Assembly: GCA_949295035.1 (NCBI GenBank) | Contig: CASFJO010000047.1 | Span: 1-52,343, forward strand | DNA length: 52,343 nt | DNA from: an uncultured Gemmiger sp. | GTDB taxonomy: Bacteria; Bacillota; Clostridia; Oscillospirales; Ruminococcaceae | Reading direction: 5' to 3' | Shown: in pieces, positions 3,525-34,839 of the stretch | Numbering within the stretch: the stretch's first letter is position 1 | Layout: each line of letters begins with the position of its first letter | Notes under the pieces: model-generated | What the model saw: only the letters and a program-made list of their open reading frames with translations | What the model was told of the DNA's origin: nothing | Database searches by the model: none | Program-made: the position numbers and the translations under genes

Positions 3525-4069
3525 GCGCCCGGTTCACTCTGGTGGCGGGGGGCGCGGCCAGCGGCAAGAGCGAGTTTGCCGAGCGGCTGATCCTGGAATC
3601 CGGCCCGCTGCCCCGGCAGTATATCGCCACCATGGAGATTTTTGACCAGGAGTGCCGCGCCCGGGTGGCCCGGCACCGGGCCATGCGGGCCACAAAAGGG
3701 TTTTCCACCCTGGAGTGCCCGGTGAACCTGCCCGGCGCCCCGGTCCCCTCCGGCGGGGCGGTGCTGCTGGAGTGCATGACCAACCTAACCGCCAACGAGC
3801 TGTTCAGCCCGAACGGCGCGGGCAGCCCCCAGGCGGCCGAGGATTCCATCCTCGCCGGGGTGGACCGCATCATGGCCGGCTGCGCCCGGCTGGTGATCGT
3901 CACCGGCGAGGTGTTCAGCGGCGGGAACCGGTACGCCGGCAACACCGATCTCTACCTGCGGCTTCTGGCCCGGGTCAACCGGGCGCTGGCCGCCCGGGCG
4001 GACGAGGTGTGCGAGGTGGTCTGCGGGCTGCCGGCCTGGTATAAACGCGAAAACGAGGTGTTTGCATGA
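3521..4069 (+). CDS. cobU: Adenosylcobinamide kinase / adenosylcobinamide-phosphate guanylyltransferase (CobU family, first copy)
   Basis: A 182-residue P-loop protein. The Walker A motif GGAASGKSE is at residues 8-16, and an ARHRAMR segment corresponds to the region of the guanylylated histidine in CobU. The kinase phosphorylates the aminopropanol arm of adenosylcobinamide and then attaches GMP to give AdoCbi-GDP, the substrate of CobS. The C-terminal part usually reads NEVGxGIVPxxxxxR; here it is degenerate (GEVFSGGNRYAGNTDLY). A second, shorter CobU-like gene follows after cobS and has the canonical C-terminal motif instead. The gene is coupled to cobT and cobS by 4-base overlaps. The family is certain; whether this copy performs both reactions is not. 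Confidence 0.88.
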   Translation: MSARFTLVAGGAASGKSEFAERLILESGPLPRQYIATMEIFDQECRARVARHRAMRATKGFSTLECPVNLPGAPVPSGGAVLLECMTNLTANELFSPNGAGSPQAAEDSILAGVDRIMAGCARLVIVTGEVFSGGNRYAGNTDLYLRLLARVNRALAARADEVCEVVCGLPAWYKRENEVFA

Positions 4070-30736: not shown

Positions 30737-31632
30737 GGCTGCGCCTCCTTTTCATAGTATTGATAAAAACTTTCTTCCAGGGTCAGGCCGTGGGTCTCCA
30801 GATCCCGGGCCCCGTATTCTGCCCCCAGAGCCAGCAGCGAGGGCAGGCTCTCACCGCCCTGCACCCGGGCGGTGAGCCGCACCCCTTCCGCCCGTGCTCC
30901 GGGCCAGCGGGCCGCCGCGGCGGCCGCCGTCTGCGGATCGGGGAAGGTGAACACATACCGGCGGCTCTTGCCGCGGCGCAGCTGTTCCATGGGCTGTACC
31001 GCCGCCAGCCGCCCCGCCCGCAGCACTGCCGCCCGGGAACAGGTGCGTTCCACCTCTTCAAACAGATGGCTGGAGAGCAGCACCGTGGCACCCCGGGCCC
31101 GGGCCTCGCCGATCAGTTCCACGAACCGGTTCTGCATCAGCGGGTCCAGACCGCTGGTGGGCTCGTCCAGGATCAGCAGTTCCGGCTCCCCCATCAGGGC
31201 GCAGACCAGCCCCACCTTCTGTTTGGTGCCCTTGCTCATCCGCCGGATGGGCTGACGGGGGTCCAGATCCAGCCGGCGGGACAGCGCGCCGGCGTCGCGG
31301 GTATCTTTCCAGCCCCGCAGCCCGGCGAGGAACCGGATCATCCCCGCACCGGTCAACTCCTCCGGCAGGGCCAGTTCTCCGGGCAGATAGCCTACCCGCC
31401 GGTGCAGCTCGCCCGCCCGGGCAAAGCAGTCCTGCCCAAACAGCCGGACGCTGCCCGCCCGGGGCTTCACAAACCCCATCAGATGGCGGATGGTAGTGGT
31501 CTTTCCCGCTCCGTTTGGTCCAAGAAAAGCGAATACCTCTCCCTGTTCCACCGTCAGGTCCAGACCAAAGACGCCCCGGCCCCGGCCATAATCCCGGGTG
31601 AGGCCCCGGATCTCAATCACCGGTGTACTCAC
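30733..31632 (-). CDS. ABC transporter ATPase of an ABC-2 exporter
   Basis: A 299-residue ATPase. Walker A is LGPNGAGKTT, signature MSKGTKQKVGL, Walker B LLILDEPTSGLD, and the switch is in LLSSHLFEEVERT. A C-terminal ~80-residue regulatory domain with aromatic and Arg-rich stretches is usual for this group (CcmA/YxlF-like). The start is GTG 31632, with GAGGAGGG 7 bases upstream; the ATG six codons earlier lies before this site. A sigma-A promoter is 55 bases upstream and overlaps the spoIVB upstream region. Confidence 0.9.
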   Translation of the reverse strand: MSTPVIEIRGLTRDYGRGRGVFGLDLTVEQGEVFAFLGPNGAGKTTTIRHLMGFVKPRAGSVRLFGQDCFARAGELHRRVGYLPGELALPEELTGAGMIRFLAGLRGWKDTRDAGALSRRLDLDPRQPIRRMSKGTKQKVGLVCALMGEPELLILDEPTSGLDPLMQNRFVELIGEARARGATVLLSSHLFEEVERTCSRAAVLRAGRLAAVQPMEQLRRGKSRRYVFTFPDPQTAAAAAARWPGARAEGVRLTARVQGGESLPSLLALGAEYGARDLETHGLTLEESFYQYYEKEAQP

Positions 31633-31686
31633 GAATATCCCTCCTCGCAAGGCGCGGCAGACGATCGGTTCGTCCGCGCTACCCTC

Positions 31687-31714
31687 ATTCTACCGGATTG
31701 ACAGAGATTTACAA
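31687..31714 (-). promoter_or_regulatory. Sigma-A-type promoter of the ABC-2 exporter operon
   Basis: On the minus strand TTGTAA (31714-31709), a 16-base spacer and TAGAAT (31692-31687). The plus strand carries a perfect TTGACA (31698-31703) inside this promoter, but no well-spaced -10 follows it. Confidence 0.65.
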
Positions 31715-31722
31715 GGCCCCGC

Positions 31723-31752
31723 TCATAAATTCCCTTGCGGCGGTGCATACTG
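31723..31752 (+). promoter_or_regulatory. Sigma-G-like promoter of spoIVB
   Basis: TCATA (31723-31727), exactly 18 bases, then CATACTG (31746-31752). This resembles the forespore sigma-G pattern (GMATR, 18-base spacer, CATnnTA) with one mismatch in each half. In Bacillus subtilis spoIVB is transcribed by forespore sigma factors, which supports the reading. It lies about 85 bases before the start codon. Confidence 0.55.
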
Positions 31753-31835
31753 TTTGTCAGAGAAGGGGCGGCGCGGTTGCGCCGCCCCCGAAATTCCGCC
31801 GGCCCGGCGCGGCGGGCAGGAAAGGGGCAAACTGT

Positions 31836-33062
31836 ATGCGAAAGTTTTTGCGGCGCGCCGCCGCGCTGCTGCTGGTGCTGGGAATGGCGATCCTGGCGAT
31901 GGTGGGCTATACCTTCAGCCGCCTGCCGGATACCTTCCTCGTGGCCGAGGGGCAGACCCTGACCATCGCGCCGATGCCGTGGGTGCGCGCGGCCGACCAG
32001 AGCGAGATCGCCCGGCAGGCCTCCGCCGTTCCGGCGGGAGGCAGTTACAATACGACACTGGCGCTGTGGGGCGTGATACCGGTCAAAACGGTGCGCACCG
32101 TAGTGGTAGACCGGCGGGTGGTGGCCGTTTGCGGCATGCCGTTCGGGATCAAGATGTTTTCAGACGGAGCCCTGGTAGTGGGCTTCAGCGATATCCGCTC
32201 CGTTTCGGGGTACTGCAATCCCGCGCGGGAAGCCGGCCTGGAGATGGGAGACTGGATCCTGTCGGTGAACGGCGCCCGGATCACCGGCAACGATGATCTG
32301 CGGAAAGCCATTCAGGAGAGCGGGCCCGATCCCTGCACGGTGGTCTACAGCCGGGACGGGGTCCAGGCGGTGACCACCTTTACCCCGGTGACCGACGTAT
32401 CCGACGGCAGTTTTCGGGCCGGGGTATGGGTGCGGGACTCCTCGGCGGGGGTGGGGACCCTGACCTTTGTGGACAACACGACCGGCATGTTTGCCGGATT
32501 GGGCCATTCCATCAGCGATGTGGATACCGGCGAGAGCATCGCGCTGCGAAGCGGCGAGATCGTGCCGGTGGAGATCATCGGTTATGAAGCGGGCCGGGTG
32601 GGCGATCCGGGCCAGCTGAAAGGGCGGTTTGCCAGCCAGATCGCGGTGGGTACCGTGCTGGGCAACGACGCCACCGGCGTATACGGCACCGTGCGCACCC
32701 TGCTGGGCGGCCAGGACATGACGGTGGCCCAGGCGCAGGAGGTGGAAGAAGGTCCGGCCCGGATCCTGACGACCATCGAGGGCAGCGAACCAAAGTGGTA
32801 CCAGGTGGAGATCGAGCAGGTGACCCTCTCCCGGCAGGACCCGAACCGGAACCTGGTGCTGCGGGTGACCGATCCCGGCCTGCTTGCCGCCACCGGAGGC
32901 ATCGTGCAGGGGATGAGCGGCAGCCCCATCGTGCAGAACGGCCGGCTGGTGGGGGCGGTGACTCATGTGCTGGTCAACGATCCCACCCGCGGCTACGGCA
33001 TCTTTGCCGAGACCATGCTGGAAATGGCAGACCAGCTGGCAGAGCAGAAAATGGCCGGATAA
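31836..33062 (+). CDS. spoIVB: SpoIVB serine peptidase, sporulation signalling protease
   Basis: A 408-residue forespore protease that, in the known pathway, is secreted across the inner forespore membrane and triggers pro-sigma-K processing by cleaving SpoIVFA. It has an N-terminal membrane helix (~7-28), a PDZ domain (~105-185, AREAGLEMGDWILSVNG) and an S55 peptidase domain. The catalytic residues appear intact: His224 in GLGHSISDVDTG, Asp346 in RVTDPG, and Ser361 in QGMSGSPI. The 15-residue Asp-Ser distance matches B. subtilis. The start is ATG 31836 after GGAAAGGGG. spo0A normally lies directly downstream; here a minus-strand gene is between them. Confidence 0.95.
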   Translation: MRKFLRRAAALLLVLGMAILAMVGYTFSRLPDTFLVAEGQTLTIAPMPWVRAADQSEIARQASAVPAGGSYNTTLALWGVIPVKTVRTVVVDRRVVAVCGMPFGIKMFSDGALVVGFSDIRSVSGYCNPAREAGLEMGDWILSVNGARITGNDDLRKAIQESGPDPCTVVYSRDGVQAVTTFTPVTDVSDGSFRAGVWVRDSSAGVGTLTFVDNTTGMFAGLGHSISDVDTGESIALRSGEIVPVEIIGYEAGRVGDPGQLKGRFASQIAVGTVLGNDATGVYGTVRTLLGGQDMTVAQAQEVEEGPARILTTIEGSEPKWYQVEIEQVTLSRQDPNRNLVLRVTDPGLLAATGGIVQGMSGSPIVQNGRLVGAVTHVLVNDPTRGYGIFAETMLEMADQLAEQKMAG

Positions 33063-33107: not shown

Positions 33108-33674
33108 TTATTCCTTCGAATACACCGTCATGCCGATCCCGGTATCCTTTACCAGGATATCTTTCGGCATCCTTGCGAATTTGACCGTCACGAATATATC
33201 GCCCGCCGCCCCGGAGACATTGCATACCTGCAAAAGATAGATCACCCAGAACCAGTCCGGCGGCACCAGCAGATTGAGGATGGCGAACACGAACAAAAAT
33301 ACCACGATCGGGGCCAGCGCGATGGCGATATAGCTCGTTTTGTCATAATAGTCATCGCTGCCCGCGAAAGCGTAGAGGCCGGTAAAGCCGTAGTGGACCT
33401 TTTTCGTGCCGCAGGCTTTCATCGTGACACCGTGAACCAGCTCGTGCAGATACAGGTAGGCGACCAGAGAACCGATAAGAACCAAAGATTTCAGGAGCGT
33501 ATTGTTCTGTGCCCAAAAGGTGGAAAACGGAACAATACCATTCATGAGCGCCAACATGGCGGCGGCGATCACGAGAGACAAAACGTTGACGAATATAGCG
33601 ACTCTCCCATTCTTTTGGAGGTTTACCGAATAAATCTCCCTGTATCCAGGGCCTAAGTTCTGAACAGATCGCAT
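33108..33674 (-). CDS. DUF3267-type putative membrane zinc metalloprotease
   Basis: A 188-residue protein with four or so hydrophobic segments and a zinc-protease motif HELVHG (HExxH) after a membrane helix at about residues 70-90. An asparagine-rich C-terminal motif near CNVSGAAGDIF recalls the third ligand region of M50-like/DUF3267 proteins. The start ATG 33674 has GAGGTGG 5 bases upstream; a GTG three codons earlier overlaps that site. The gene is transcribed from its own strong promoter, opposite to spoIVB and spo0A. Its base composition is visibly more AT-rich than that of its neighbours, suggesting later acquisition. It is a possible functional cousin of SpoIVFB, but that is speculation. 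Confidence 0.72.
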   Translation of the reverse strand: MRSVQNLGPGYREIYSVNLQKNGRVAIFVNVLSLVIAAAMLALMNGIVPFSTFWAQNNTLLKSLVLIGSLVAYLYLHELVHGVTMKACGTKKVHYGFTGLYAFAGSDDYYDKTSYIAIALAPIVVFLFVFAILNLLVPPDWFWVIYLLQVCNVSGAAGDIFVTVKFARMPKDILVKDTGIGMTVYSKE

Positions 33675-33744
33675 GCGGGCCACCTCGTATAGCGATAAAA
33701 GGGTGTACGGCTGAAACTGCGCGGCGGAAACCGGCGTTTTTCAA

Positions 33745-33971: not shown

Positions 33972-34036
33972 TGTCGAGAAAAAATCCGAAGAAAAATTTG
34001 GAATCTATTGCACAAATTGGAAATAACTGGTAAAAT
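33972..34036 (+). promoter_or_regulatory. spo0A promoter with a Spo0A-box-like site
   Basis: TTGCAC (34008-34013), a 17-base spacer and TAAAAT (34031-34036), with TG at the extended -10 position. TGTCGAG at 33972-33978 matches the 0A core TGTCGAA in six of seven bases, about 30 bases upstream of the -35. This suggests autoregulation. The rest of the 415-base gap between the DUF3267 gene and spo0A shows no credible coding sequence. Confidence 0.65.
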
Positions 34037-34089
34037 CTACTCCAGACAAGGAAATCCGCCGCAACGGAGAACTAATGGAGGAAAAGACA

Positions 34090-34839
34090 ATGGAAAAGAT
34101 TCGATTTTTGATGACGGACATCGGCGCGGCCACTGAGGCATGCCGCAGTGCGTTGGAGCAAAAAGGCGTGGAAGTTTCAGTTTGTGAGCGGGACGGGGAA
34201 GCGGCGCTGCGCTGCCTGCTGGAACAGCGGCCCCGCGCGGTTCTGCTGGAGGCCTTCATGCCGGGGCTGGACGCGCTGGCGGTCAAGCAGCGGTACGCGG
34301 CTGCGGGCGGCGGCAACACGGTGTTCTTCGTCACCGGCAACTTCCGCAACGAGGACCTGGAGCAGGAATTGCTGGAGAGCGGATTTTCCTTCTACTTTGT
34401 CAAACCTTTTGACGAAACGGTGCTGGCGGCCCGGGTGATGCGGGCGGCGGGCATGCCGCCCCGGCCCCACATCACGGTGGACAACGATGAGGCGGCGGTC
34501 ACCGAGATCCTGCACCAGATCGGGGTGCCGGCGCACATCAAGGGCTACAAGTTTCTGCGGGACGCCATCCTGCTGACCATGGCCGATCCGGAGTACATCA
34601 ACGCGGTGACCAAGCGGCTGTATCCCGAGATCGGCAAGATGAACGGCACTACCGCCAGCCGTGTGGAGCGGGCCATCCGCCATGCCATCGAGGTGGCCTG
34701 GGACCGGGGCGATGTGGATACCCTGAACATGTATTTTGGCTACACCATCCACAATCTGCGGGGCAAGCCCACCAACTCGGAATTTATCGCCATGATCGCC
34801 GACCGGATGCGGCTGGACAAGAAACAGCGCATCGGCTGA
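34090..34839 (+). CDS. spo0A: Spo0A sporulation master regulator with atypical receiver domain
   Basis: A 249-residue regulator. The C-terminal Spo0A DNA-binding domain (~135-249) is highly typical: EILHQIGVPAHIKGYKFLR, TTASRVERAIRHAIEVAW and GKPTNSEFIAMIADRMRL. In the N-terminal receiver the phospho-acceptor Asp is replaced by Glu54 (LLEAFMP where LDIxMP is expected), and the acidic pair ADD reads TDI (Asp10 kept, next position Ile11). Thr82 and Lys105 of the receiver are kept. The start at ATG 34090 is set by GGAGG 8 bases upstream; the ATG at 34075 contains that site. The protein may be locked in an active-like state or regulated without the usual phosphorelay, which is inference. A terminator follows. 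Confidence 0.95.
   Translation: MEKIRFLMTDIGAATEACRSALEQKGVEVSVCERDGEAALRCLLEQRPRAVLLEAFMPGLDALAVKQRYAAAGGGNTVFFVTGNFRNEDLEQELLESGFSFYFVKPFDETVLAARVMRAAGMPPRPHITVDNDEAAVTEILHQIGVPAHIKGYKFLRDAILLTMADPEYINAVTKRLYPEIGKMNGTTASRVERAIRHAIEVAWDRGDVDTLNMYFGYTIHNLRGKPTNSEFIAMIADRMRLDKKQRIG

Follow-up and report, generated by a model that had tools for sequence, protein, structure and literature searches.

A Spo0A orthologue without the phospho-acceptor aspartate in a Gemmiger-like bacterium, and the recurrent absence of this residue in Oscillospirales

Introduction

Phosphorylation of Spo0A at a conserved Asp residue is described, in a passage of PMC11210211, as the common trigger of endospore formation. 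The locus analysed here raises the question of how Spo0A works when that Asp is absent. In the window, namely the whole stretch of 52,343 nucleotides under analysis (contig CASFJO010000047.1 of assembly GCA_949295035.1, from an uncultured Gemmiger sp.), the initial annotation recognized a spo0A gene with Glu at the place of the phospho-acceptor Asp and proposed a constitutive or phosphorelay-independent regulator, perhaps in a lineage that lost or rewired sporulation.

Results

The window encodes the Spo0A of a Gemmiger-like genus

The spo0A open reading frame was confirmed in its coordinates and frame (Table 1); a GGAGG ribosome site (34077-34081) lies 8 nt before the ATG. The product has the two-domain layout of Spo0A, with an N-terminal receiver (Response_reg, 35.3 bits; Pfam cut-off 30.2) and a DNA-binding domain (Spo0A_C, 149.2 bits; cut-off 25), and it scores 229.9 bits with the equivalog model TIGR02875 (spore_0_A), over the curated cut-off of 200. 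The DNA-binding domain is essentially canonical also by sequence comparison, as had been annotated. The nearest named relatives of the protein are those of Gemmiger sp. An120 and of two Gemmiger MAGs (98-99% identity), and the genome is Gemmiger-like (An120 group). A second, canonical spo0A, looked for as a refutation, was not found in the window's genome (assembly 91.8% complete), and all four genomes analysed for the genus, two of them 99% complete, carry a single spo0A. Judged by its domains and the curated model score, the protein is the genus's own, orthologous Spo0A. We also noticed two weak matches to the DNA-binding half of Spo0A without a receiver in the window's genome (G000, C40:24973-25254 and C72:25312-25608; E about 0.001-0.002).

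Table 1. Features of the spo0A region, in coordinates of the window
Feature	Position	Strand	Basis and remarks
spoIVB (SpoIVB peptidase S55), upstream neighbour	31623..33062	+	Family model match over cut-off
Gene for DUF3267 putative zincin peptidase, between spoIVB and spo0A	33108..33683	-	Family match
117-base leader of spo0A: sigma-70-like site (34009-34036) and ribosome site	33973..34089	+	Conservation in genus; putative function
spo0A, 249 aa and stop	34090..34839	+	ATG at 34090, stop ends at 34839; Pfam and TIGR02875 matches; sole copy found in genome
Receiver domain, residues 1-120	34090..34449	+	Pseudo-receiver: Asp10 and Lys105 kept; Ile11, Glu54 and Gly83 changed
Codon of Ile11, second acidic-pocket position	34120..34122	+	Sequence alignment
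Codon of Glu54 (GAG), place of phospho-acceptor Asp	34249..34251	+	Alignment to 1dz3 and 295 sequences
Codons of Thr82 and Gly83; Gly83 at place of switch Thr/Ser	34333..34338	+	Two alignments
Codon of Lys105, conserved pocket lysine	34402..34404	+	Two alignments
Spo0A_C DNA-binding domain, residues 137-239, canonical	34498..34806	+	Pfam and sequence comparison

Three of five key receiver residues are changed

Residues were mapped by a gapless alignment to the receiver of the solved Spo0A 1dz3 and by a multiple alignment in which 1dz3 was joined to 295 sequences, and the two agree. Glu54 aligns to Asp55, Lys105 to Lys106, and Gly83 to Thr84 of 1dz3. Glu hence stands at the phospho-acceptor place and Ile11 replaces the second acid of the pocket, both as first annotated, while the first acid, Asp10, is present. 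The annotation had further regarded Thr82 and Lys105 as kept; this holds for Lys105, but the switch place is Gly83, and Thr82 lies one residue earlier. Two residues after the pocket Lys (Lys+2) stands Phe107.

Among the features of a Spo0A activated by phosphorylation, therefore, Lys105 is kept, but the protein has no Asp acceptor, only one acid in the pocket and no switch Thr/Ser. It retains homology to receivers with the phospho-acceptor Asp replaced, by which alignment the domain is classed as an aspartate-less pseudo-receiver. Of the mechanism discussed below, the best-supported step is the impossibility of phosphorylating the usual Asp.

Glu54 is fixed in the genus and the receiver is under selection

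Comparison with related genomes showed Glu54 to be genus-wide, since it is found in all four genomes analysed for the genus, one of which matches the isolate An120 (L039). At codon 54 the window has GAG and its three relatives have GAA, a synonymous difference at the very base on which the choice between Asp and Glu depends, which indicates that Glu54 is not a sequencing error. Among six pairs in the genus (dS 0.13-0.40), dN/dS was 0.011-0.038 for the receiver and 0-0.031 for the DNA-binding domain; the receiver is thus not decaying.

Leader, neighbours and 0A-box words

The leader of spo0A differs from those of the genus relatives L038, L039 and L040 at 2, 2 and 5 places, while the 117 bases preceding it have only 55-79% identity across six pairs. 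It contains a single sigma-70-like site, whose second hexamer is preceded by TG (TG-TAAAAT, promoter-like), and a similar TGGTA core occurs in five of six aligned leaders from Faecalibacterium, Fournierella and Anaerofilum but not in L045. At the upstream edge of the leader, TGTCGAG (33972-33978) is one letter off the 0A box. The conserved leader fits, without proving, control by transcription, and its intactness alone does not establish that Spo0A is controlled by amount.

As in the Bacillus gene order, where spoIVB is a typical neighbour of spo0A, spoIVB is found near spo0A in the window, with one gene between them; its model match does not start until residue 81, and the open reading frame as called probably begins too far upstream. 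The intervening gene varies in the genus: L039 (2602-3651) and L040 (2604-3653) have there a 349-aa protein that by eye looks like an HTH-plus-repeat regulator, L038 has only about 270 bases (3731-4000), and no relative of the DUF3267 gene was seen beside spo0A in 12 named loci.

In 26 of 28 genomes, with Asp or Glu alike, the 250 bases preceding spoIIAA do not contain the 0A-box word TGTCGAA; the other two genomes had three sites, 0.7 being expected for this one operon and one strict word. The search thus lends no support to a link between Spo0A and the spoIIAA target. Within the window, the same word occurs 3 times against an expectation of 2.3, consistent with chance.

The Asp is repeatedly absent in Oscillospirales

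We then collected 225 Oscillospirales loci, consisting of 12 named loci and the best rows of larger, overlapping searches that had matched 356/394 and 262/297 genomes; taken from best rows, the set leans towards sequences like that of the window. Position 54 is Asp in 165 of these loci, Glu in 45, Asn in 11, Ser in 2, and Trp and Gly in one each, and hence acidic in 210. When counted as 217 distinct sequences, Spo0A keeps Asp in 162 and lacks it in 55, and all five key residues are intact in 50. In 70 Spo0A sequences from other Clostridia, a control of 30 best rows and 40 spread by family that leans towards canonical Spo0A, Asp is kept in 67 and all five residues in 59.

To be free of this bias, we also made an even draw of 30 Oscillospirales genomes, of which 27 had a match and 26 were readable at position 54; a fragment of the DNA-binding part from the end of a contig (L331) and the extra copies L332 (Asn) and L333 (Asp) were left out of the count. 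Asp was absent in 10/26 (Asn in 6, Glu in 3, Ser in 1) versus 3/70 in the other Clostridia (Fisher p 8e-5, relatedness disregarded), or in 9/25 without the window, which is one of the Glu cases; all five key residues were present in 9/26.

Parsimony on one FastTree tree (287 rows, key columns excluded) counts 35 undirected changes between Asp and non-Asp within the order, and over all 287 rows 22 independent pairs lie on starred branches, although long branches make the starred branches less sure. A more careful tree, restricted to 45 rows close to the window, has 7 such changes. A single Glu origin for genera g1 and g13 was also considered; the best tree gives two, but the topology test does not reject a single one (p-AU 0.239). 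Together with the dN/dS values, the recurrence across the order suggests that Glu54 is more than chance. Loss of Asp is associated with loss of Lys by Fisher's test (p 0.0016) but not significantly with independent pairs (median p 0.125), and no association was seen with loss of the second acid or of the switch residue; the loss of Asp and the other pocket losses are at most loosely coupled.

Among 54 Asp-less genomes of the 225-locus sample, 50 have a single spo0A match (E<=1e-20), and four (G311, G444, G486 and G387) have two. The Trp at position 54 belongs to L022 (genome G168); a Trp replacement at the phospho-acceptor place was not found in the ALR survey, according to a passage of PMC4395418.

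Position 54 remains constrained

In Oscillospirales the receiver has roughly three times the evolutionary rate of the DNA-binding domain (tree length 112.9 over 116 columns versus 35.2 over 112), but tips without Asp are no faster than those with Asp (receiver p 0.97; ratio p 0.17). The entropy of position 54 is 1.14 in the order versus 0.32 in other Clostridia, and its conservation ranks 11th and 10th, respectively, among the 120 receiver columns. Position 54 is therefore still constrained, although in many sequences it does not serve as a phospho-acceptor; such constraint speaks against drift, yet leaves room for a role of charge. Asp61, furthermore, is nearly invariant in the order.

Sporulation genes are kept in most genomes without the Asp

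Sporulation markers were searched in 80 chosen genomes, 46 without and 34 with the Asp. SpoIVA, SpoIIE, SigF-type and SpoVAC were each matched in 45 of the 46 Asp-less genomes, and all four in 42, compared with 29/34 for SpoIVA and 31/34 for each of the other three in the genomes with Asp. Matches over the family cut-off were obtained for SpoIVA in 72/80 and SpoVAC in 47/80, but for neither SigF nor SpoIIE in the 80 genomes nor for SpoIIAA in 30; the matches to these three are thus relatives by score, those of SigF-type may include SigG, and the SpoIIE match of G104 is weak and covers the phosphatase part only. Conversely, the three genomes of genus g202 (G429, G584 and G523; 94, 67 and 78% complete) keep Asp54 (loci L082, L081 and L084) but match none of the four markers nor alpha/beta SASP, so that Spo0A may have another job there.

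The window's genome still has relatives of early and middle sporulation genes, including a spoIIAA-like gene with a SigF-type gene 500 bases on. SpoIVA and SpoIVB pass their cut-offs and SpoVAC falls just under (159.6 of 164 bits), like SpoIIE, SigF-type and SpoIIAA, which are also matched below theirs; SASP genes, however, are absent from the window's group with Asp or Glu alike. Indeed, they were found in none of 42 genomes of the Faecalibacterium-like group (12 without Asp and 30 with it; g202 is included, and G476 may fall outside the clade on the tree), most of which match the other markers, versus 35 of the 38 other genomes. This agrees with a passage of Medvecky 2018 (PMC6069880), in which Faecalibacterium, Anaerofilum and Gemmiger lack spore proteins while other required genes are present. 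Either spores without SASP or another use of the programme would account for this pattern, and classical spores are doubtful in the window's own group, which may make none. In general, nonetheless, loss of the Asp is not a sign of sporulation loss, since the markers are kept in Asp-less genomes and 31 of the 34 Asp-less genomes outside the group have SASP genes.

Discussion

How, then, does this Spo0A work? As the most likely reading, and with moderate confidence, we propose that it acts without phosphotransfer from a kinase, its receiver being selected as a dimer or partner module and its activity being set by amount and/or by another input. A receiver without the Asp would take no phosphate from a histidine kinase, and strong selection would keep it as a module for forming dimers or binding partners. 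The activity of Spo0A would then depend mainly on the quantity of protein expressed from the conserved promoter region; another ligand, partner or covalent change might replace or supplement this control. Through the essentially unchanged C-terminal domain, Spo0A should still bind DNA, and its targets may still be sporulation genes. Pseudo-receivers often self-dimerise, and a few are controlled by amount or partners, as stated in an excerpt of PMC12632262. Independence of the phosphorelay, one half of what the initial annotation proposed, is supported by inference from the genus-wide absence of the Asp, the failure to find another spo0A and the strong selection on the receiver. The other half, constitutive activity by a Glu that mimics phosphate, has been weakened for the reasons given next. 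In our ranking, accordingly, action independent of phosphorylation comes before phosphate mimicry, and mimicry before a shift of the phosphorylation site.

If Glu54 mimicked phosphate, the receiver would be held in its active state, Spo0A would be constitutively on, and dosage would decide entry. Replacement of Asp by Glu activates some response regulators, according to passages of PMC4395418 and PMC12632262; Lys105 is kept in the pocket, Glu is retained despite the synonymous difference at its codon, and Glu is the commonest replacement among the 225 loci (45/60 without Asp), a set leaning to the window's kin. The charge of position 54, which is mostly acidic and well conserved, may also matter, as a mimic would need. 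In the even draw, however, Asn leads with 6/10 and Glu has 3/10. Binding to the conserved Thr and Lys is a possible mode of action for a Glu mimic (a passage of PMC12632262), and the Thr partner is missing here with Gly83 at the switch place; Phe at Lys+2, as in Phe107, biases CheY to the inactive state (another passage of PMC12632262). Furthermore, Asp-to-Glu alone is often insufficient, and Spo0A is named as such a case in a passage of PMC4395418 that cites Green 1991. With the switch Thr/Ser gone and relatives using Asn, Ser, Trp or Gly at position 54, Glu alone as a mimic is the less likely explanation, and we consider phosphate mimicry unlikely overall.

Quite improbable, though ranked next to mimicry, is that phosphorylation has moved to another residue (e.g., Asp10, Asp61 or a Ser/Thr) or is supplied by small-molecule phosphodonors. 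The retention of Asp10 and Lys105 and the near invariance of Asp61 would suit this possibility, but the second acid and the switch Thr/Ser, both lost, would not.

That sporulation has been lost in the lineage and the receiver is drifting would be consistent with the lack of SASP genes in 42/42 genomes of the Faecalibacterium-like group, with the report on Gemmiger, Faecalibacterium and Anaerofilum (Medvecky 2018) and with the loss of the second acid and switch residue as well. The low dN/dS of the receiver, nonetheless, largely refutes decay; SpoIVA and SpoIVB pass cut-offs beside other sporulation relatives, tips without Asp are not faster, and SASP genes are common in Asp-less genomes outside the group. 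The suggestion of a lineage that lost sporulation is hence mostly unsupported, the markers being kept in nearly all Asp-less genomes and the marker-less genus g202 having kept the Asp, and we regard decay as very unlikely. An artefact, whether an error of sequencing or a second, canonical spo0A that the 91.8% complete assembly lacks, can practically be dismissed, because Glu54 recurs in three further assemblies (one an isolate), the different Glu codon in relatives refutes an error, and two genomes of the genus that are 99% complete have a single spo0A each.

Compared with canonical Spo0A (B. subtilis, B. stearothermophilus 1dz3 and C. difficile), the window's protein shares the two-domain layout, a closely similar Spo0A_C and spoIVB near the gene, but is without the phospho-acceptor Asp, the second acid and the switch Thr/Ser. 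Spo0A of Faecalibacterium (L041, L042, L043 and L045) is 71-77% identical and also has Gly83, but it keeps Asp54, unlike the window's protein, and has Thr in place of Asp at position 11; SASP genes are likewise absent in the four genomes of genus g6 tested. With aspartate-less receivers (ALR) and pseudo-receivers (PsR) such as ChxR, HP1043, GlnR, RitR and BldM, the protein has in common the replaced Asp, the first acid and Lys, and a DNA-binding output, whereas it differs from these examples in being an orthologue of the sporulation master regulator and in recurring in one order. Aspartate-less receivers are already known, but we found no published account of a natural Spo0A with this trait throughout an order: no paper on a natural Asp-less Spo0A came up in searches of the open-licence PMC literature, and in the main texts of two reviews Spo0A is not listed as ALR/PsR, appearing only as a laboratory mutant in PMC4395418 and without mention in PMC12632262.

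Extending our proposal of phosphorylation-independent action to the whole order can only be tentative, and we would hold it to be possible rather than probable: in Oscillospirales, which form a large gut order, entry into sporulation would have been repeatedly uncoupled from phosphorylation of Spo0A, with the receiver turned into a constitutive dimer or another sensor, and many species would still sporulate. If a large order has indeed repeatedly dropped the Asp yet kept the programme, the presence of spo0A would not equal input from a kinase, searches for sporulation kinases in Oscillospirales may be futile, and the prediction of spores as well as the choice of culture triggers would need another basis. 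Asp, Glu and Asn at this position in close relatives, furthermore, provide natural matched pairs for testing how a receiver is rewired to its output. Control of spore formation in Oscillospirales may therefore depart from the textbook mechanism.
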